Below, one piece after another: positions 1 through 25,384 of a stretch of 26,440 bases of DNA. The notes below the pieces were generated by a model, which saw nothing but the letters and a program-made list of their open reading frames with translations, was not told the DNA's origin and did not search any database. Each line of letters starts with the position of its first letter. Position 1 is the stretch's first letter. The translations under genes were made by a program, and so were the position numbers. This DNA comes from a virus, in the IMG/VR virus record IMGVR_UViG_3300009132_000026, positions 1 through 26,440 of that record. One strand, written 5' to 3'.

Positions 1-683
1 GCATAGGCAGGTACTCTCATAGCTGTTATACCACCAGCATCTGCTTTGACTTGATATGATGGGTCACCAACAGCTACTCGTATTGTTTCTATAGCCATAT
101 TCGGATATACTTCCTCACCTATCTTCATAAGCAATGGTACTCGTCTTACAACACCATCAATTTCAGGAGCGGTATTAATAACACCAACACCTCCAGCACA
201 TTCAGCTAATTGAGGTAATGGACCAACCATACCGTCCCACTCAAAGAGATATGGAAGAGGGTCTCCTATCTTTGCCACACCTCTTGGCACTGGATTAGAT
301 ATTCTTTTTTGTGCTGTACCAACTTGAGCAATAACTGTGCCATACGTTAATGTTTCACAAAATGCATCATCACTACCAAACCTATCCTCTTCACTAAACA
401 ATATAGGCATAACAATAATACCTGTTTGTGCATTTCTTAATTGAAGTATAAGGTTAGCAAGTACATCACGGTCCCACGGCCATTGACCATGTTTCTCTAT
501 TGCTTGCTCATCTATGGTGACAATTGATATTGCTTGGGAAGGTGTTTTCTCTTCATTTTGAAGTACATAATCAAATGATTTGAGTCTAAGTATTTCTTTA
601 ACCCACGGGTCTTGAAGTCCAATATAGGTTAATGCTATAAGAGTAATAAATGCTATTGTCCAATGTGATAGTATTTTCTTCAT
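1..683 (-). CDS. CHASE2-domain protein, partial (C-terminus off the left edge)
   Basis: The first 227 codons are visible, from the ATG at 683-681 leftward. Residues about 8-23 are one hydrophobic segment (IAFITLIALTYIGL). The following region fits a CHASE2 extracytoplasmic sensor domain: SFDYVLQ, then ISIVTIDEQAIEKHGQWPWDRD, then IIVMPILFSEEDRFGSDDAF, the usual order of an IDE..G.WPW.R motif and an f.E....D motif. In bacteria CHASE2 normally precedes cyclases, kinases or extra membrane helices. Whatever follows here lies outside the window, so signalling output cannot be judged. It is the last visible gene of the leftward curli-like operon, right after a curlin-like gene and near a FecR gene, a partner often found with CHASE2. 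A TATAAATA box ends six bases before the ATG and there is no Shine-Dalgarno, so it may be translated from a leaderless late transcript. Confidence 0.85.
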   Translation of the reverse strand, partial: MKKILSHWTIAFITLIALTYIGLQDPWVKEILRLKSFDYVLQNEEKTPSQAISIVTIDEQAIEKHGQWPWDRDVLANLILQLRNAQTGIIVMPILFSEEDRFGSDDAFCETLTYGTVIAQVGTAQKRISNPVPRGVAKIGDPLPYLFEWDGMVGPLPQLAECAGGVGVINTAPEIDGVVRRVPLLMKIGEEVYPNMAIETIRVAVGDPSYQVKADAGGITAMRVPAY

Positions 684-696: not shown

Positions 697-1491
697 CTAA
701 TTTTGTGTAACAGTAATTGAGCAACCAGAAGAGGTCTGGCAATTATTTGTTAGTGTGTATGTTTGATTTGAATTACTATTTTGTGTTAGGTCTAGGTCTG
801 TTGTGTAAGAGCCTGTTAAATCTATTGTAGCTGTATGAGCACCATCTCCTTTTTGTACCATAGACTGCTCTCCATTATCGGTTCGTACTGTGAAATGTAA
901 TGTCTTATTTCCATTACCTTTTTGTTTAAAGAAGATATCGTTATTATCGCCTCCATAAGTATAAATTCTGGCATAATGGTCTGCATTACCTGTACCCGTC
1001 TCTTGAGAACCTTTTAAGTCTGTGTTGCCGGAATGAATATCTAAATCAATTGTATGACCACCATATTCAGCTGTTGTAGATTCCTCACAAACTGAATCAT
1101 TTGCATCGACATATGTTTTACCTTGACAAAGGTCTATAGTATTATTACTACTTGGTATATGAAATCCTATTTTATTTGCATCTGAACCTGTTGTATTATA
1201 TTGCATTAGCTTGAGCGTATTATTTGAACCATCTAAGTCACCACCCCAACCAGCACCAGACCCCCAATAAGAAACCCAGCTTATTGTATTATTCTCACCT
1301 ATTTGGTCAATGTCAATATTATTACTGTCATGTGATACAGATAAGCGAACTTCATTATCATCACCATCTTGTAAGATATTAAGTGTGAAACTATTGCTTG
1401 TACCAACTTGGTCAATGTATATTTCATTAGCCGCAAATACAGGTAGGCACAATAGTAAAATACTACTGACTTTGAATAATGTTAATTTCAC
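697..1491 (-). CDS. Curlin-like repeat protein 2, secreted
   Basis: A 264-residue protein with a clear signal peptide (MKLTLFKVSSILLLCLPVFA) followed by curlin-type motifs. Examples are IDQVGTSN (26-33), LQDGDDN (40-46), IDQIGENN (61-68), and later QKGNGN and QKGDG, the Q-x-G-x-x-N pattern typical of CsgA/CsgB repeats. The N-terminus resembles that of the other curlin-like gene in this operon (N-x-IY-xx-Q-x-G-x-S and LQDGD-x-N), so they are paralogues. The repeats are irregular, as in a minor or nucleator subunit, but that role is inferred. It contains two cysteine pairs (C122/C135 and C251/C257), unlike E. coli CsgA. The start is GTG at 1491-1489, preceded by AGGAGG eight bases upstream, and lies 29 bases inside the end of the FecR gene, suggesting coupled translation. 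Confidence 0.78.
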   Translation of the reverse strand: MKLTLFKVSSILLLCLPVFAANEIYIDQVGTSNSFTLNILQDGDDNEVRLSVSHDSNNIDIDQIGENNTISWVSYWGSGAGWGGDLDGSNNTLKLMQYNTTGSDANKIGFHIPSSNNTIDLCQGKTYVDANDSVCEESTTAEYGGHTIDLDIHSGNTDLKGSQETGTGNADHYARIYTYGGDNNDIFFKQKGNGNKTLHFTVRTDNGEQSMVQKGDGAHTATIDLTGSYTTDLDLTQNSNSNQTYTLTNNCQTSSGCSITVTQN

Positions 1492-2575
1492 TTTCCGTTC
1501 CTCCTAATTCAAAATCTATTAGTTCAAAATCTCCAACTTGTATATTCATTAAATAACTATTTGCCTGTTCGAGCCTTAATTCTATAACACTACCACTTGC
1601 TGCTTCCCTGTGCCAATACCATTCTGGGTCCTCATCTAATATTGTGATTCCTGTTTCTTTATCTGTACCTAATACTATATCACCCTTTGCTTTTTTCTTT
1701 TTATCAAGTTTATCACCTAATTGTAATGCTAATTGTAAGTTCAATTGGTCTAAAATATTGCCTAAAAAGTTTTGTGCTAAAAAATCTCTGTCAAGTTGAC
1801 CTACACTATCATCTTCATCTAATTCTTCAAGATAGTCTTCCATTGATTTATCTAATTCATCAAATGCTAGTAAATCAACATCAAGCGCGGTAGCAGTCTT
1901 TTGGAACTCTTCTTCTCTTACTGCCTCTTCAATCTCTCTTGGTGGTGAAAAAATTAATAGGTTAGTAATAAAATTTTCTTCTAAACTTAAAATAATAGGC
2001 TTTAATGGTGGACTACTAATTGTATCTACAACCGTGGCCTGAAAAGCTGTATTCATAATAACCTGACCAGCATCAGACTCAACCGTTATTTCACCAACAA
2101 AGCAATAACCATTTGTATCACATGATGGCAATAGAATAATAGTTGAAGAACCAATCTCGTCTACCGTCATCGTAAAATCTGTACCACGGACACCAATTGT
2201 TGCAGTTGGTGTCTTTATTTGTACTTCGGTTGGGCTGGTCTTTGCAATCTGGCCAGATGCATATCGTATTGTACCTAGCGCTGCTTTAAGTGATAACGAA
2301 CCTGTCTTTGTATTTGGGTCATAAACAAATTCGTCAATAATTAATTTAGAATGTTCAGTTACATCAACTCTCGTATCATCAATAAACCCAATAGCAACTT
2401 TACCCTTACCAGTTTTAACAGTATTATATGAAAATACATCTAAATCTTTTTCAGCCTCAACGTCTTCACCATCTTGTTCAATAACAGCATTACCTGTATG
2501 TAGTATAACATCACCAATTACATCATCAGCAAATGCATTAAAAGTTAAGCACCATAATATAATGAAGAGTCGCAC
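1463..2575 (-). CDS. FecR-domain periplasmic protein
   Basis: A 370-residue protein with an N-terminal signal peptide (MRLFIILWCLTFNAFA, cut before DD) and a FecR domain over about residues 20-140. The diagnostic stretch is TPTATIGVRGTDF at 122-134, preceded by GKVAIGFIDDTRVDV and LGTIRYASGQI. The remainder (about 210-370) is acidic and helical with a lysine run (DKKKKAKGD), then a short beta-rich tail. FecR domains without a sigma/anti-sigma partner are common in secreted bacterial proteins and often occur near CHASE2. Here the gene lies between two curlin-like genes, so a role in fibre anchoring or surface sensing is a reasonable guess, not more. The start is GTG at 2575, one base after the upstream stop. 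It carries a C152/C158 pair. No TonB or sigma factor gene is visible. Confidence 0.85.
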   Translation of the reverse strand: MRLFIILWCLTFNAFADDVIGDVILHTGNAVIEQDGEDVEAEKDLDVFSYNTVKTGKGKVAIGFIDDTRVDVTEHSKLIIDEFVYDPNTKTGSLSLKAALGTIRYASGQIAKTSPTEVQIKTPTATIGVRGTDFTMTVDEIGSSTIILLPSCDTNGYCFVGEITVESDAGQVIMNTAFQATVVDTISSPPLKPIILSLEENFITNLLIFSPPREIEEAVREEEFQKTATALDVDLLAFDELDKSMEDYLEELDEDDSVGQLDRDFLAQNFLGNILDQLNLQLALQLGDKLDKKKKAKGDIVLGTDKETGITILDEDPEWYWHREAASGSVIELRLEQANSYLMNIQVGDFELIDFELGGTESEINIIQSQ

Positions 2576-2576
2576 A

Positions 2577-3692
2577 TTAATCTCGTTGAATAATATCTAC
2601 ATTTGCCGAAGAACCATTTACTTCTAAATCTATTATATCACCACTTCCACCAGTTTGTAATATAACATAATCTGCACTAGCACCATCATGGTGTAATGAA
2701 AGCGTACTCGCATTGTCTTGGTCGATATCAGCTGTGAAACTTGCTCCAGCAGCATCTATATGAACTGTACCTGTACTTGTTTGTTCAATACTAACATTCG
2801 CACTTGCACCATTCACATCTAAGTTAATAGTACCTGTACTTGTTTGGTCAATATCATATGAACCACCAGCACCAGCTAGACCAGATGAAGTTTGTCCAAG
2901 AATGGTTCCATCAGTATTAAATGTTGCATGACCTGTTTGGTTAATATTAATTGTCTTCACAGCAGAGGCTGTACTTCCAGTAGATGTTACAGTTATACTA
3001 CCACCAGCGGTCTGGTTAATATCAATATTTTGTGAATCACCTGTTGTTGTTACAGTTGCTATATTGTCATAGTTACCTGATTGGACTACATCCACATCGG
3101 CTGTGATACCAGTTTGGGTCATAATTAAAGTATGACCATTGACATCTCCATTGTCATCAATGTTAATTAAATAGTTATTTGTATCTCCATCAATTGTTAA
3201 TCTTAATATTGCACTTGTACCATCAATTGTGGCAGCAACAACAGTACTATCCGTACCTGAGGCACCAACAATATCAATATCAGCGCTATCACCTGACTTT
3301 GACGAGGTAAGACCTACATCAATATCAATGTCTTGTGAGTTACCTGCAAAGGTGATTGTAGCATGAACACTATCACATCCTGAAGTAGCATCGGCGGAAT
3401 CACAATTGAAATCAATATTGTTACTATTACCTGTTGTACTCCACACACCGGTAAAGCTATCACCATGAATATCAAAAGTAATTATATTACTATTACCGAC
3501 TTGGTCAATATTAAAGTTTGTTGCTGAACCACTAGCGGTAGATGCAGTTGTACTATTGCCAATCATATTGCCATCACCGTCTTGTAGCACATCAAATACT
3601 AATGAAGCGCCAGCTTGCGTTACATAAATCTTATTTGTTGCCATTACTGACAAGCTCATCATTACCATAACAAAGAAACTGAAAATTTTCAA
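2577..3692 (-). CDS. Curlin-like repeat protein 1, secreted, major-subunit candidate
   Basis: A 371-residue protein with a signal peptide (residues 1-18, ending SVMA) and a long Ser/Thr/Gly/Asn/Asp-rich beta-repeat body with almost no Lys or Arg. Early curlin motifs are LQDGDGN and IDQVGNSN. Towards the C-terminus Gln residues form a ladder: Q204, Q227, Q252, Q283, Q304, Q325, Q346, Q369. Those at 283-346 are spaced exactly 21 residues apart and flanked by repeats such as QTSTGT and NGASAN. Curlin repeats are normally 19-23 residues with conserved Gln and Asn, so a stacked beta-solenoid amyloid subunit is the best reading. CsgG lies immediately upstream and would export it. The start is TTG at 3692, six bases after AAGGAG, which lies inside the csgG end. 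A C97/C106 pair is present. It is acidic and much longer than E. coli CsgA (151 residues). Confidence 0.8.
   Translation of the reverse strand: MKIFSFFVMVMMSLSVMATNKIYVTQAGASLVFDVLQDGDGNMIGNSTTASTASGSATNFNIDQVGNSNIITFDIHGDSFTGVWSTTGNSNNIDFNCDSADATSGCDSVHATITFAGNSQDIDIDVGLTSSKSGDSADIDIVGASGTDSTVVAATIDGTSAILRLTIDGDTNNYLINIDDNGDVNGHTLIMTQTGITADVDVVQSGNYDNIATVTTTGDSQNIDINQTAGGSITVTSTGSTASAVKTININQTGHATFNTDGTILGQTSSGLAGAGGSYDIDQTSTGTINLDVNGASANVSIEQTSTGTVHIDAAGASFTADIDQDNASTLSLHHDGASADYVILQTGGSGDIIDLEVNGSSANVDIIQRD
2588..2846 (-). repeat. Tandem 63-base coding repeats in curlin-like gene 1
   Basis: Imperfect units encode the 21-residue Gln-to-Gln repeats (Q283 to Q346), followed by a longer 23-residue unit to Q369. 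Two units keep nucleotide identity in the plus-strand string gtacctgtacttgttt, at 2767 and again 63 bases on at 2830. That suggests recent duplication of a unit within the gene. Confidence 0.7.
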
Positions 3693-3693
3693 A

Positions 3694-4599
3694 TTATTCT
3701 CCTTGTTTTTCTTGATTTGGATGTTCTACCCAACTGTCTAGTGGTATACTAGAATCTATTATATTTATAGTTTGAACCTCTTCTTTTGGTAGTTCCCACT
3801 CCCATAAGCCTAATTCTTTACCTTCATATACCATTTGCAATACTGCATATTCTATTGCAGTACGGATTGCATAATTCACTGGCTCATTAGCCGCATTACC
3901 AGATTCTATCTCTAATGCTTTTGTACCTAAATCTAAAAACCTAAATACATCTGCACCATTGCTAGTACTCGCAATTGTTTTTGAGACCTGTACAGTTAAT
4001 AAAATCTCTCCTGTTTGTACTCCAACAAGTCTTAATGAAACTGTCACTTGGTCTGTTCTATATTCTTCGGAAGCACCTAAACCAAAATATCTCATACCAG
4101 CACCACCAGAAGTTGTGTTAGTATCATAGCCAACAATGCCACCCTCTAATATTAGGCCGGCAAATAACATAGGTTGTAATGAATCTACTCCGGTCGCACC
4201 ATCATATAATTCCCTTGTACTTCTTATTAGTTGCCGCTCTTTAACTACGTTATCTAAACTTGCCCTTTCAACAACTGTAAACCAATCACCTCTGCTAACT
4301 GCCATCAATGCTTGTATAACCCAAACATCAGCTCCTTGTGAAACCGCTGTGGATAACCCAGTTTGTTTCCTTTGTCCTGTGACATCAGGAAATTTATAAA
4401 CAGCAACAGTAATCTTTACTGGATTACCATTACCATCTGTTGGTACGTTTATCAAGTCAGGCACTTCGTGTAATAATGTCTTAGTTGGTGTACCTTCTAT
4501 AAATGGCATATCACCTTGTATTGGTTCTGCCTTTTGATTCATACTACACGCGCCGACTAAGCACGATAATAAAGCCACTGCTAAATATTCCATATTCAT
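3694..4599 (-). CDS. csgG: CsgG family curli secretion pore lipoprotein
   Basis: A 301-residue protein matching CsgG along its length. It has a lipoprotein signal with lipobox VGAC (Cys18), then VAVYKFPDVTGQ, LSTAVSQGAD, ERQLIRSTRE, ILEGGIVGYDTNTTSGGAGMRYFGLGA and LVGVQTGEILLTVQVSKTI, with YEGKELGLWEW near the end. In E. coli CsgG forms a nonameric outer-membrane channel for curlin subunits. The two transmembrane-hairpin regions and the C-terminal helix look intact. The loop between TGQ and STAV, which in E. coli carries the constriction residues Y51, N55 and F56, is only RKQTGL (residues 77-82). That is three residues shorter and lacks all three side chains. The start is ATG at 4599; a second in-frame ATG at 4593 has a better-placed AGG and could be the true start. 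It lies between csgF and curlin-like gene 1. Confidence 0.92.
   Translation of the reverse strand: MNMEYLAVALLSCLVGACSMNQKAEPIQGDMPFIEGTPTKTLLHEVPDLINVPTDGNGNPVKITVAVYKFPDVTGQRKQTGLSTAVSQGADVWVIQALMAVSRGDWFTVVERASLDNVVKERQLIRSTRELYDGATGVDSLQPMLFAGLILEGGIVGYDTNTTSGGAGMRYFGLGASEEYRTDQVTVSLRLVGVQTGEILLTVQVSKTIASTSNGADVFRFLDLGTKALEIESGNAANEPVNYAIRTAIEYAVLQMVYEGKELGLWEWELPKEEVQTINIIDSSIPLDSWVEHPNQEKQGE
3762..3769 (-). promoter_or_regulatory. Possible internal late promoter within csgG
   Basis: A perfect TATAAATA on the minus strand, inside the last codons of csgG. It would start transcription near 3756 and give curlin-like gene 1 a leader of about 64 bases that includes its AAGGAG. A dedicated promoter for an abundant fibre subunit would make sense. 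At this AT content a few in-gene matches are expected by chance. Confidence 0.3.
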
Positions 4600-4606
4600 A
4601 ACCTAT

Positions 4607-5110
4607 TTAAAATTTAAAGTCTCCAACCGGTACTATTAATTGAGTTATACTACCAGCAGCATCAGTAACGGTTAATGTAATTGTTTCTGCTGTTGTATCT
4701 TTTGACCAAACAACCGTTGCACCATCAGGTAAAGTTGCACTACCACTTAATGGACATTGTTTATCTTTATCTGGAAGCGTCGCTTCAAGGTCAGGGTCAT
4801 CAGGGGTACAATTAGTACCAAACATATTGTCAACCATTTGTTTGGATAAGTTTGCAAAGATACGACTCTCAACGTTTGTTACAAACTTAGCAAGAGTTGT
4901 ATTTGCTTCTGCTCTAGCAGCTGCTTTTTCTGCCGCTGTTGCATCATCTTTTACTGCCTCTTTTCTTTGAAATTGCAATTGCTCAATTGATAACACATGA
5001 GTAGAATAACCTTGTCCACTAAAAGCTGGATTCTTAAAGCCAAAGGTTAATTCACTAGCATTACCAATCGTCGTCAGTATTATTGCTATTATTGCTATTA
5101 TTTTTTTCAC
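4607..5110 (-). CDS. csgF: CsgF family curli assembly factor
   Basis: A 167-residue protein with a signal peptide (MKKIIAIIAIILTTIGNA) followed by SELTFGFKNPAFSGQGY, the counterpart of the E. coli CsgF mature N-terminus TMTFQFRNPNFGGNP that inserts into the CsgG channel. The C-terminus, ITLTVTDAAGSITQLIVPVGDF, matches the CsgF end (LNVTDRKTGQTSTIQV). The middle (about 45-100) is an Ala/Glu-rich helix. In E. coli CsgF sits on the outer face of CsgG and couples secretion to nucleation. It is longer than E. coli CsgF (138), with a loop carrying C101 and C119. The start is GTG at 5110 with GGAG ten bases upstream. The first 50 bases overlap the end of the upstream membrane-protein gene, so the signal peptide is encoded in an overprinted region. 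The stop lies seven bases before csgG. Confidence 0.87.
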   Translation of the reverse strand: MKKIIAIIAIILTTIGNASELTFGFKNPAFSGQGYSTHVLSIEQLQFQRKEAVKDDATAAEKAAARAEANTTLAKFVTNVESRIFANLSKQMVDNMFGTNCTPDDPDLEATLPDKDKQCPLSGSATLPDGATVVWSKDTTAETITLTVTDAAGSITQLIVPVGDFKF

Positions 5111-5366
5111 GTCTGGCTTTCTCCTGTAATATTATATCCAACTTAGCATTAAGTCGAATTAAATCATTATCTAACATTCTAACTCTATCAATTAACGCAA
5201 TCAAAGTAAAATGACTTTTACCAATGACTGGGTCCACCTTTGTTGATACCCATGTCCATATAAAATATATAAAATAGGCCATTGCAAATGCAGCAATAAT
5301 GGGAAAACCATAATCGCTAATTAATGTACCAATTGTGGTTCCTTGTTCTACTACTACTTCATCCAT
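5061..5366 (-). CDS. Small membrane protein, paralogue of the 5662-5940 product
   Basis: A 101-residue protein with one N-terminal transmembrane segment (GFPIIAAFAMAYFIYFIWTW, about 20-39), an amphipathic helical region containing ALIDRVRMLDNDLIRLNAKLD, and a polar tail of Asn/Ser repeats ending TDDDW. It aligns without gaps over about 61 residues with the other small membrane protein of this operon, sharing GFPI, YF-x-Y, AL-xx-RV, LIR and K (about a third identical). One helix plus a charged amphipathic tail is an architecture shared with BhlA-type holin-like phage proteins, but there is no sequence motif to prove that. Its 3' end is dual-coding with the csgF signal peptide. The start is ATG at 5366, three bases after the upstream stop. 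Confidence 0.7.
   Translation of the reverse strand: MDEVVVEQGTTIGTLISDYGFPIIAAFAMAYFIYFIWTWVSTKVDPVIGKSHFTLIALIDRVRMLDNDLIRLNAKLDIILQEKARREKNNSNNSNNTDDDW
5079..5102 (-). repeat. Nine-base tandem repeat in a dual-coding overlap
   Basis: The minus strand carries AATAATAGC twice plus a partial third copy (AATAAT). One frame encodes the Asn-Asn-Ser tail of the small membrane protein. The other encodes the Ile-Ile-Ala hydrophobic core of the CsgF signal peptide. Confidence 0.85.
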
Positions 5367-5368
5367 AA

Positions 5369-5662
5369 TTAATTCTTCCCTATTCCAAATGCGCTACCTG
5401 TTAAAATAGCTCCAAAGGCCAAATGAAATAATCCACCACCCATAAGGGTAAATGGATTATGCTGACCTGTCAATTTTTTCATTAATTCTAATTGTATCAA
5501 TGGGTCTTCAACTGTATTAAGTATATCAATAAACATTGCTAAATCCGGTCTATTCAATCCATACCAGATAGGTACAAACATAAAGTCATAAAAACAAATA
5601 GCAAGATATAATATTAGCGCACTCCAGCGCCATCTCATTGTGCTTTTTTCCATCGCAGTCAT
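5369..5662 (-). CDS. Small membrane protein, holin-like candidate
   Basis: A 97-residue protein with two or three hydrophobic segments: WSALILYLAICFYDFMFVPIW (about 13-33) and FTLMGGGLFHLAFGAILTGSAFG (about 71-93), separated by a polar stretch with IDILNTVEDPLIQLELMKK. Size, multiple membrane spans and the FH-x3-GAILTG end recall phage holins of the GTA_holin_3TM type. This is a resemblance only, not a recognised family match. It lies between two mutually paralogous single-span proteins and shares their late transcription unit. It starts with ATG at 5662 overlapping the previous stop (TAATG), with AGGAGA five bases upstream. If it is the holin, the curli genes would be co-expressed with lysis. 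Confidence 0.65.
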   Translation of the reverse strand: MTAMEKSTMRWRWSALILYLAICFYDFMFVPIWYGLNRPDLAMFIDILNTVEDPLIQLELMKKLTGQHNPFTLMGGGLFHLAFGAILTGSAFGIGKN

Positions 5663-5940
5663 TAATCTCTCCTAGCATCTGTCTTACCATCAGCTCTTGC
5701 GATTCTATCAACGTCAGGTCTTATATTAAATGCCTGGCACATCTTTACATCAATCCTAATTAACTCACTATTCATTGTTTTAACCCTATTGTCAAGAGCT
5801 TGTGCAAACATTTTTTGTTGTTTAATATCATCTAACACACCATCTAATATAAAATTAAGTGTTAAATATACAAAATAACCTGCTGCTCCTGCTCCAACTA
5901 TAGGAAAACCTACTTCAGCAACTAAATCTAAATACTCCAA
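5662..5940 (-). CDS. Small membrane protein, first gene of the leftward late operon
   Basis: A 92-residue protein with one transmembrane segment (GFPIVGAGAAGYFVYLTLNFIL, about 11-32), then a charged helical region (ALDNRVKTMNSELIRIDVK) and a basic tail. It is paralogous to the 5061-5366 product. The start is inferred to be TTG at 5940-5938, because AGGAGA sits six bases upstream and a late promoter lies about 30 bases upstream. The open frame extends further, to an ATG at 6048, but that would cross both divergent promoters and the ferredoxin start, so it is unlikely. Function is unknown; a BhlA/holin-like or inner-membrane role is possible from its architecture. Confidence 0.68.
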   Translation of the reverse strand: MEYLDLVAEVGFPIVGAGAAGYFVYLTLNFILDGVLDDIKQQKMFAQALDNRVKTMNSELIRIDVKMCQAFNIRPDVDRIARADGKTDARRD

Positions 5941-5968
5941 ATCAATTCTCCTAATCTGTACATACCTA

Positions 5969-5976
5969 TATTTATA
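5969..5976 (-). promoter_or_regulatory. T4-type late promoter for the leftward curli-like operon
   Basis: A perfect TATAAATA on the minus strand, in the gap between the divergent genes. With T4 spacing transcription starts at about 5963, giving a 23-base leader that contains AGGAGA before the TTG at 5940. No other promoter or terminator was seen between here and csgG, so it probably drives the whole leftward cluster. Confidence 0.75.
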
Positions 5977-5977
5977 A

Positions 5978-6262
<285 letters not shown>

Positions 6263-6677: not shown

Positions 6678-6808
6678 TGGGAAGTAATTTAGGTTTAATA
6701 GGAATTGGTTTGGTTGGATTATTTGCTACATCAATGATTAAGTTTGTTGCTATTGCAGCCATAGCATGGGGTGCATATAAAGCATGGAAAGATTGGGGAG
6801 CGATGTAA
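6677..6808 (+). CDS. Tiny hydrophobic protein (43 aa)
   Basis: ATG at 6677 overlaps the previous stop (TAATG), with GGAG eight bases upstream. The 43 residues are almost entirely a hydrophobic helix pair (LGLIGIGLVGLFATSMIKFVAIAAIAWGAY, in two segments) ending KAWKDWGAM. Its stop overlaps the lipase ATG in the same TAATG fashion. The overlaps on both sides make it a credible gene. A small membrane peptide next to a lipase could belong to a lysis set, but this is only contextual. Confidence 0.6.
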   Translation: MGSNLGLIGIGLVGLFATSMIKFVAIAAIAWGAYKAWKDWGAM

Positions 6809-7563
6809 TGAGCATAAGTGATATGAATATAAAGCAGCAAAGTTTGCTTTTTGCTAAGCTTGCGGCTGATGCATACGGAGAAAAGAAAGCCGTAACAGCA
6901 CTTGCTAAGAAACATGGTTTTACTAAAACAAAATTTTATGATAATGGCGGTGCTCAAGCATATAGATTTGAGAGCAAAACCGATGTTGTTGTCGCATGTC
7001 GTGGCACACAACCTACAGAATTTAATGATTTAAAAGCAGACCTTAAAGCATTTCCCGTTAAATCAGAGACTGTTAGTAGAGTTCATAGGGGATTTAAGGC
7101 TGAGGTAGATGAGCTTTGGCCTATGGTAAAACCTGATATTGAGACAACTGATAAAAAATTATGGTTCTGTGGTCATTCACTTGGAGCTGCAATGGCTACA
7201 ATTATGGCTAGTAGGTGTCATTTAAGATGGGAATTTGCTAACGTAGAAGCTTTATTTACTTATGGTTCACCTAGAGTTGGGTGGCCTGCATACGTTAAGC
7301 ATTTAAAGCTTACTCATTATAGGTGGCAAAATAATAATGATATAGTCACAAGGGTACCTCTTAGGATTATGGGTTATAGGCATGATGGTCATTTAATGTA
7401 TATAAGACATGATGGTTCTATTGATGATGATGGTAAATTTAAATGGCATAGACGATTTAAAGACCGTATGAAAGGTATGTGGGGCGGTATAAAACATGGT
7501 AAAGTTGATAATTTTTCAGACCATGCAATGACTGAATATATCACACACTTAGAAAATTGGTAG
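6808..7563 (+). CDS. Class 3 lipase (alpha/beta hydrolase)
   Basis: A 251-residue class 3 lipase-like protein. It has the nucleophile elbow GHSLGAAMA with Ser124, the acid Asp178 in NNDIVTRVP, and the catalytic His239 in DHAMTEY. Upstream are VVVACRGTQPTEFNDLKADL, typical of the family's oxyanion region, and VHRGFKAEVDELW. It has no signal peptide. The ATG at 6808 is chosen over an in-frame ATG at 6784 because GGGGAG sits seven bases before it and it overlaps the previous stop. Class 3 lipases hydrolyse acylglycerols or phospholipids. In a late phage operon it could weaken host membranes at lysis or act on lipids after entry; I cannot tell which. Confidence 0.88.
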   Translation: MSISDMNIKQQSLLFAKLAADAYGEKKAVTALAKKHGFTKTKFYDNGGAQAYRFESKTDVVVACRGTQPTEFNDLKADLKAFPVKSETVSRVHRGFKAEVDELWPMVKPDIETTDKKLWFCGHSLGAAMATIMASRCHLRWEFANVEALFTYGSPRVGWPAYVKHLKLTHYRWQNNNDIVTRVPLRIMGYRHDGHLMYIRHDGSIDDDGKFKWHRRFKDRMKGMWGGIKHGKVDNFSDHAMTEYITHLENW

Positions 7564-23827: not shown

Positions 23828-24297
23828 GTTACTCATATGCTAGAATAAACCTAGAGAAAACAAATTATAGGAAAATGAAAGGTGGTTGGAAATTTAGTTC
23901 GTTAGCATCGCCTGAGGAATATAATAAAATATATTATAAATATTGTAACTATCATAAATTTAATAGTGTCATGCCTATATTTGATATTGAATATGAAGAG
24001 AATGACATTATAGAATATTATGATGGCTTTAACTTAGTAGCTTTTAGTATGATAGGAAGATATGATGAACACAATGCTGAATGCTATCAATTTGCTTGGG
24101 ACTATGACAACCCTAAGTTGCATTTAGGTATAAAGAGTTTACGTAATGAGTGTGCGATATATAAAGAACTAGGATTTAAATATCTTTATATTGGTGGAGC
24201 AGATGAATATAAACAAAAAATAAATGGTTTTGAAGTGATGGGACCAGTAAATTGGATTGAAGATAGATGGTCAATAGATGGATTTGAAAAAATATAA
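23824..24297 (+). CDS. GNAT-fold protein resembling arginyl-tRNA-protein transferase C-domain
   Basis: A 157-residue protein. The region LVAFSMIGRYDEHNAECYQFAWDYDNPKLHLGIKSLRNECAIYKELGFKYLYIGG follows the pattern of the ATE/Bpt aminoacyltransferase C-terminal domain. That pattern is a strand, then a D-P..slG...l..ei..akelG..Y.YlG motif. YYKYCNYHKF upstream may match the Y..Y...RH region. The N-terminal Cys-containing ATE domain is missing, so arginyl transfer to proteins is not assured; it may transfer another acyl or aminoacyl group. The start at ATG 23824 overlaps the previous stop, with GGAG upstream. The end overlaps the amidinotransferase by 20 bases. The family call is by eye only. Confidence 0.55.
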   Translation: MSYSYARINLEKTNYRKMKGGWKFSSLASPEEYNKIYYKYCNYHKFNSVMPIFDIEYEENDIIEYYDGFNLVAFSMIGRYDEHNAECYQFAWDYDNPKLHLGIKSLRNECAIYKELGFKYLYIGGADEYKQKINGFEVMGPVNWIEDRWSIDGFEKI

Positions 24298-25384
24298 AGT
24301 AACTAAAGCTAACTCATGGAATGGTTGGGACCCTTTAAAGCAAGTAATCCTTGGTAATGTATTTGACCCAGATTTTTTTGAGGATATTCAAGACCCTAAG
24401 CTTAGAGATTTATTACAAAGATTATTATATGAAACCCATGAAGACTTAATGGGTATTAAAAAAACCTTAGAGGACTTAGGCGTTGAGGTAATACAACCAC
24501 CAAGAAATACTATAGCGAGTTATGGAGAAATTGATAATTCAAATAAATTTAGTGGTATTACAGAAGCTATTAATACTGACTGGGAAGGAAAGGTACGAGG
24601 GTTACCTAAACCATGCCTTATGCCAAGAGATTATTATGTTACCCTTGGTGATAAAGTATTATTTACTGGATTTTTACATGAGAAATCAAAGGCTCATTTT
24701 ATGTTTGAGCCTGGTGTTGTTGATTATTGGGATAATAAAGAATTAATTAATAGAGAGAATGGTGAACTATCTAATGATTTTTGGGCACCTCAACTTATAC
24801 GATTAGGCAATAGACTTATTATTGACCAAGAGGATTATAGTAATCTTGCTGAAAAAGTCTTAGAAAGATATCCAATATTTAAAGGTAGCAAAATAGCAGT
24901 GGGAGGACATACCGATGGTTCTATGAATTTGCCAAAACCAGGATTGGTTGTTAGTGGTCCGTGGATACCTAAAGAAACTTTTAAAGATACATTACCTGGT
25001 TGGGATGTCCTACATATAAAGAATCCAAATTATTATGGAAATGAATGGAAGGATAGTTGGTGGGATGAGAGAAATCTTACTAGAGGTAGATGGTGGCACC
25101 CTGAAGCTAAATCAAATCCAGATTTAGTTAACTATGTAGATAAGTGGTTAAATGAATGGGTTGGTTATGCAGAAGAAACTATGTTTGAAGTCAATATGCT
25201 TTCAATATCTGAAGAAGTTATATTAAGTTTAAACTATCATAAAGACGTCCATGATAAATTAAAACAACATGGAATAGAACCTATATATTGTAGGTTTAGG
25301 CATAGAAACTTTTGGGACGGTGGATTGCATTGTTTAACATTAGATACTGTTAGAGAAGGTGGTATGCAAGATTATTTTAAATAA
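24278..25384 (+). CDS. Amidinotransferase-family enzyme
   Basis: A 368-residue enzyme of the glycine/inosamine amidinotransferase and arginine deiminase superfamily. Catalytic candidates are Cys352 in GGLHCLTLDT, His211 and Asp213 in VGGHTDGSMN, and Asp118 in MPRDYYVTLGDKVLF. The N-terminus NSWNGWDPLKQVILGNV and the strongly conserved GGLHC-T-D end are typical of amidinotransferases. It probably moves an amidino group from arginine to an amine acceptor, or hydrolyses a guanidino compound; the acceptor is unknown. Coupled to the GNAT/ATE-like gene by a 20-base overlap, which hints at a shared small-molecule or modification pathway. It is unusual for a phage morphogenesis region. Confidence 0.85.
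   Translation: MDLKKYKVTKANSWNGWDPLKQVILGNVFDPDFFEDIQDPKLRDLLQRLLYETHEDLMGIKKTLEDLGVEVIQPPRNTIASYGEIDNSNKFSGITEAINTDWEGKVRGLPKPCLMPRDYYVTLGDKVLFTGFLHEKSKAHFMFEPGVVDYWDNKELINRENGELSNDFWAPQLIRLGNRLIIDQEDYSNLAEKVLERYPIFKGSKIAVGGHTDGSMNLPKPGLVVSGPWIPKETFKDTLPGWDVLHIKNPNYYGNEWKDSWWDERNLTRGRWWHPEAKSNPDLVNYVDKWLNEWVGYAEETMFEVNMLSISEEVILSLNYHKDVHDKLKQHGIEPIYCRFRHRNFWDGGLHCLTLDTVREGGMQDYFK

Follow-up and report, generated by a model that had tools for sequence, protein, structure and literature searches.

In curli secretion the CsgG constriction restricts what can be exported, and in commercial nanopores it determines the signal. A csgG gene in IMG/VR virus record IMGVR_UViG_3300009132_000026 (the window is the whole stretch of 26,440 nucleotides analysed here) encodes a constriction loop of only six residues, which raises the question of what becomes of the gate when this loop is cut so short. 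The gene lies in the following group:

4607..5110, minus strand: csgF, 167 aa (Pfam CsgF, E 2.1e-11)
3694..4599, minus strand: csgG, outer-membrane curli channel lipoprotein, 301 aa (Pfam, phmmer, Foldseek)
2577..3692, minus strand: curlin1, the CsgG-adjacent curlin-like secreted repeat protein, 371 aa (AF2 model, Pfam matches of relatives)
1463..2575, minus strand: FecR-domain protein of the phage curli cluster (Pfam FecR, E 6.2e-9)
697..1491, minus strand: curlin2, second curlin-like protein, 264 aa (Curlin_rpt at 16.2 bits, below cut-off)
3..683, minus strand: CHASE2-domain protein, cut by the window end (Pfam CHASE2, E 3.6e-27)

The CHASE2 protein is the start of the cluster's adenylate/guanylate cyclase and occupies the same place as the cyclase in Pelagibacter phage HTVC008M and Methylophilales phage Melnitz. 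The resulting order, csgF-csgG-curlin1-fecR-curlin2-CHASE2/cyclase, is that of a phage type VIII secretion cluster (PMC9599517), and its part from csgG to the cyclase (csgG-curlin1-fecR-curlin2-cyclase) is conserved in related loci. The CsgE, CsgC and CsgD families had no match among the cluster proteins scanned in this 26-kb fragment; CsgE was likewise not found in published phage curli clusters (PMC9599517). Capsid, portal and terminase assign the window to the T4-like phages, and its nearest relatives by capsid protein (54-58%) include Melnitz, HTVC008M and other marine phages. The CsgG of HTVC008M (KC465899) belongs to the same CsgG clade, with the same operon order and ~64% identity over 85% of the protein; it differs in having a 10-aa loop (RKPSTKFSQL), no linker insertion, a curlin1 of 228 aa and a curlin2 of 441 aa. 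Melnitz (MZ577095-98) likewise has a phage curli cluster, encoding CsgF, FecR, a cyclase and two curlin repeat proteins; its CsgG is 48% identical and also carries a 10-aa loop (RKPSQRFSQL). Phage curli clusters were already known (PMC7029224, PMC9599517), and modelled CsgG-like pores, some of them viral, have been gathered in a resource (PMC13397529); in the literature searched we found no report of a short CsgG loop. The short-loop CsgG is best described as a real, lineage-specific variant of an already known phage-borne protein.

Several other genes of the window were recorded. Upstream of csgF lie three small, apparently membrane-bound proteins (5061-5366, 5369-5662 and 5662-6048, minus strand), two of which match phrog_18771, a family of unknown function, and so appear to be duplicates retained alongside the curli cluster. 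On the plus strand, 5990-6262 encodes a small protein resembling ferredoxins, in which 4Fe-4S motifs are present (Pfam Fer4_7, E 1e-6), and 6784-7563 a protein with a class 3 lipase domain (Pfam Lipase_3, E 8.5e-18; PHROG esterase/lipase). A 368-aa protein at 24278-25384 (plus strand) has a C-terminal part that matches structurally characterised amidinotransferases, namely SxtG and arginine:glycine amidinotransferase, with E 5e-7 to 6e-4; such an enzyme looks unusual in a T4-like marine phage.

Family searches place the window protein in CsgG. The ORF matches Pfam CsgG (PF03783) with E 9.3e-48 and 162.8 bits against a cut-off of 20.8, and phmmer aligned it to the E. coli CsgG structure 6lqh with E 1.9e-45. 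The lipoprotein signal and cysteine expected of a CsgG are present as a lipobox, LVGAC, with Cys18 at least 90% conserved in alignment A1. Two stretches of the protein are of interest here:

4417..4458, minus strand: lengthened linker before strand beta-1, residues 48-61, DLINVPTDGNGNPV, ~8 residues longer than in sister phages
4354..4371, minus strand: RKQTGL, the shortened constriction (C-) loop, residues 77-82; 6 aa long, where E. coli has 9 and sister phages 10

Residues 74-86 read TGQ-RKQTGL-STAV, and in the phmmer alignment to E. coli CsgG a 3-residue gap falls precisely between TGQ and STAV, opposite the E. coli sequence FKPYPASNF. Translation and alignment therefore bear out the observation of a preliminary description of this DNA that six residues stand here in place of nine; the interval it gave for them, 4351-4372, contains the loop (4371-4354) but is off by one to three bases. 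E. coli CsgG (PDB 4uv3, 6l7a, 6si7) shares the fold, the lipoprotein cysteine, the TGQ...STAV frame of the C-loop and the adjoining CsgF partner gene; it differs from the window protein in its 9-aa loop with rings of Tyr51, Asn55 and Phe56 and in lacking the long pre-beta-1 linker.

To place the loop among its relatives, CsgG sequences were collected from IMG/VR (five viral queries), phage records and bacterial genomes, with divergent CsgG paralogues below 100 bits excluded, and 260 distinct proteins were aligned. Loops of 10, 9 and 6 residues occurred in 221, 9 and 30 of these phage and bacterial proteins, respectively. An alignment-free pattern count agreed: loops of 6, 9 and 10 residues were found in 32, 1 and 174 segments of virus records, and loops of 9, 10 and 11 residues in 22, 50 and 1 genome sequences, with none of 6. 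The two 6-residue cases met among genome sequences were phage-like contigs binned in MAGs; a genome-contig scan with the window CsgG returned two such contigs, a probable chimera and two bacterial CsgG. The preliminary description had named a short loop common in ordinary bacterial curli CsgG as evidence against its idea, and it proposed comparison with phage and bacterial homologues; in an enlarged genome sample none of the 82 CsgG of the bacterial set had a short loop (lengths 9-11), and the 6-residue form was confined to one clade of the alignment. Loops of 7-8 residues may exist elsewhere, since sampling followed similarity to the chosen queries. In all other CsgG sampled the constriction loop has 9-10 residues and ends in a bulky one, though this is no published family criterion; the window protein departs from it in length (6) and keeps the bulky last residue (Leu). 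Loop length is a variable sub-feature, and the short loop marks a variant of CsgG, not a non-member.

For phylogenetic analysis, a tree of 136 rows was built with the loop columns omitted and with twelve representative short-loop proteins. All twelve formed one branch (SH-aLRT 100), requiring one change, and the nearest relatives of this clade, including HTVC008M, have 10-residue loops; a single loss of four residues is the simplest history. Between the window csgG and eleven short-loop relatives dN/dS was 0.11-0.21, so the short form has been retained as a working protein. Because the window is a metagenome-derived virus record, a sequencing, assembly or alignment artefact has to be considered; with TGQ and STAV intact, dN/dS low, and the 6-residue loop present in 30 different CsgG proteins and on 53 stretches of IMG/VR (matches to a short-loop DNA pattern, reading RK[QAPE][VT]GL), this explanation is ruled out for practical purposes. 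Individual records deserve separate mention. On one 140.5-kb contig (L452) a short-loop csgG apparently stops prematurely after LILEGG, which could be a sequencing error or a decaying copy. A Bacteroidetes MAG contig (DLYY01000199.1) joins a stretch that by eye resembles ribosomal protein L3 to a phage csgG at RKQVGL and looks chimeric. Brevundimonas phage Kabachok and H8-H10, all large Brevundimonas phages, encode a divergent member of the CsgG family, at 27-28% identity, which lies outside the marine clade.

The residues at the E. coli gate positions were compared across the same 260 proteins. It had been pointed out that none of Tyr51, Asn55 and Phe56 is present in the phage loop; this holds letter for letter, but it would fit many phage CsgG, since Tyr at the Tyr51 position is limited to E. 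coli and a single Salmonella-derived sequence that is nearly identical to it, and Leu occupies the Phe56 position (the last loop residue) in 121 of the 221 ten-residue loops. Neither Tyr51 nor Asn55 is a feature of CsgG in general. Within the loop, its length and Gly at the Asn55 position, found in 30/30, are what set the short-loop clade apart. OR851715.1 (Salmonella phage S.Kent 1-2-1), a 1.5-kb entry submitted as phage DNA, contains a csgG of enterobacterial type whose loop is that of E. coli, and is probably host contamination.

A second change accompanies the deletion. Only with the 6-aa loop is the linker before strand beta-1 ~8 residues longer (PTDGxGNPVKITVAVY versus DLDNQPKITIAVY): Pro47 and TGQ are spaced by 26-27 in 30/30 short-loop CsgG and by 15-18 in the others, except for two rows with a spacing of 25 in which the reference Pro looks misplaced. 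The extra residues could fill the CsgG lumen. The AF2 monomer of the window CsgG (mean pLDDT 67.8, pTM 0.58) has a CsgG fold, with CsgG chains 6l7c/6l7a as top Foldseek matches (TM 0.69-0.71 on target), which at the level of the monomer upholds the earlier premise that the fold is kept. Two transmembrane hairpins were predicted with moderate model confidence (strands 149-165/174-193 and 199-218/233-237), and residues 81-84 of the loop, at pLDDT < 50, are the least certain part of the monomer core.

Whether the pore retains a constriction depends also on CsgF. In E. coli, the CsgG-CsgF complex has two constrictions (PMC7304575); Phe5, Phe7 and Phe12 of CsgF are required to bind CsgG and Asn17 forms the second ring, with curli still made by N17Y and none by N17R (PMC6957492). 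The mature N-terminus of the window CsgF, SELTFGFKNPAFSGQGYS, keeps Phe5, Phe7 and Phe12 and has Tyr17 in place of Asn17 at the constriction position. By position-by-position comparison the same four residues are present, with small exceptions, in the CsgF of short-loop relatives, and the long-loop sisters have mostly His5 and likewise Tyr17. A second ring, formed by CsgF, is expected in the phage pore because these residues are kept, which argues against a simply open pore. We considered a compensating change in CsgF specific to the short-loop clade and rejected it at the constriction, as Tyr17 is common to the long-loop sisters; the differences lie mainly at positions 4, 5 and 15.

From these data we favour, with a probability of roughly 0.6, a CsgG-CsgF channel that exports curlin-like proteins through a shorter, probably wider CsgG eyelet, with CsgF as the likely main gate. 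On this reading the window CsgG serves as the channel in the outer membrane for a curli-type (type VIII) secretion cluster encoded by the phage. Four residues were lost once, in one T4-like marine phage lineage, and purifying selection has maintained the short form since then. The protein would still form a ring with CsgF, its eyelet lined by Leu82 next to Gly81 and free of Tyr, Asn and Phe rings; nine CsgF Tyr17 residues would then become the main narrow point, and unfolded curlin-like repeat proteins would pass this ring to reach the surface of the infected cell. A bolder version, which we put forward as a tentative possibility, is a single-gate export pore that has in effect dispensed with the CsgG eyelet, gating having moved to the CsgF tyrosine ring, and that evolved along with a larger curlin-like substrate and the new pre-beta-1 loop.

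The substrates bear on what drove the change. Curlin1 is longer in the short-loop clade (318-387 aa in 26 loci) than in FS[QN]L long-loop loci (224-256 aa in 55), and alignment attributes the difference to a C-terminal repeat extension of ~140 aa, which in the window protein is:

2583..3011, minus strand: curlin1 C-terminal repeat extension, residues 228-370 (short-loop clade only; alignment A2)

The AF2 model of curlin1 (pLDDT 84, pTM 0.83) has ~28 short strands in a regular repeat, and Foldseek found no significant match to a solved structure in the PDB. Pfam Curlin_rpt matches curlin1 in 5/28 relatives (best E 1.6e-4) and does not match the window copy, so that its curlin nature rests on position, composition, the weak Pfam matches of relatives and predicted strands. 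One locus near the base of the clade (L022) has a curlin1 of intermediate length, 318 aa, with a shorter repeat extension, suggesting stepwise repeat growth. Curlin2, whose position is conserved across related loci, is often 432-503 aa in 10-residue-loop phages (441 in HTVC008M).

That the loop was shortened so that the enlarged curlin1 could pass is a doubtful explanation. The C-terminal extension speaks for it, and the preliminary description's link of the loop to longer curlin-like substrates agrees with the length of curlin1 in this clade. A long chain nevertheless seems not to need a short loop, because phages with 10-residue loops encode the long curlin2 just described, and such unfolded chains presumably already cross the 10-aa-loop channel; as the sole cause of the shortening, a longer substrate is weakened by this. 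Short loop, linker and curlin1 extension, moreover, all sit on a single branch and so count as one event, and the link may be coincidence. Neutral shortening, in which a ring of Leu82, the extra linker or a rearrangement of the loop keeps the eyelet equally narrow and gating unchanged, is a possibility we take seriously while thinking it unlikely. Long-loop phages commonly carry Leu at the Phe56 position, and the linker insertion, being present in every short-loop protein, could be compensation. The preliminary description had named a constriction restored by another loop as evidence against its idea, and the longer linker or CsgF Tyr17 may play such a part. In the known topology, however, the linker should lie far from the eyelet, because it joins strand beta-1 at the end opposite the loop, and Gly has replaced the usual residue at the Asn55 position throughout the clade.

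Pinholins are small hole-formers that act by depolarising the inner membrane. The preliminary description also raised a leaky pore assisting lysis, and that, or a pinholin-like device, is improbable for a 301-aa predicted outer-membrane lipoprotein with a CsgG fold. Gene position and a monomer model led to the proposal of a lysis/secretin role for Melnitz CsgG (PMC9004378), and CsgE has not been found in phage clusters (PMC9599517), which is compatible with such a role. Melnitz, the source of the idea, has a 10-aa loop, so a lysis role would leave the shortening unexplained; no result here supports a leaky pore. The CsgF of these phages also keeps its binding residues and its own constriction, and curlin-like genes stay beside csgG across the clade.

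The natural four-residue shortening, standing beside a long-loop sister group, is a ready comparison for the function of the loop, and the short-loop lineage bears on why marine phages carry curli clusters that are absent from their hosts.
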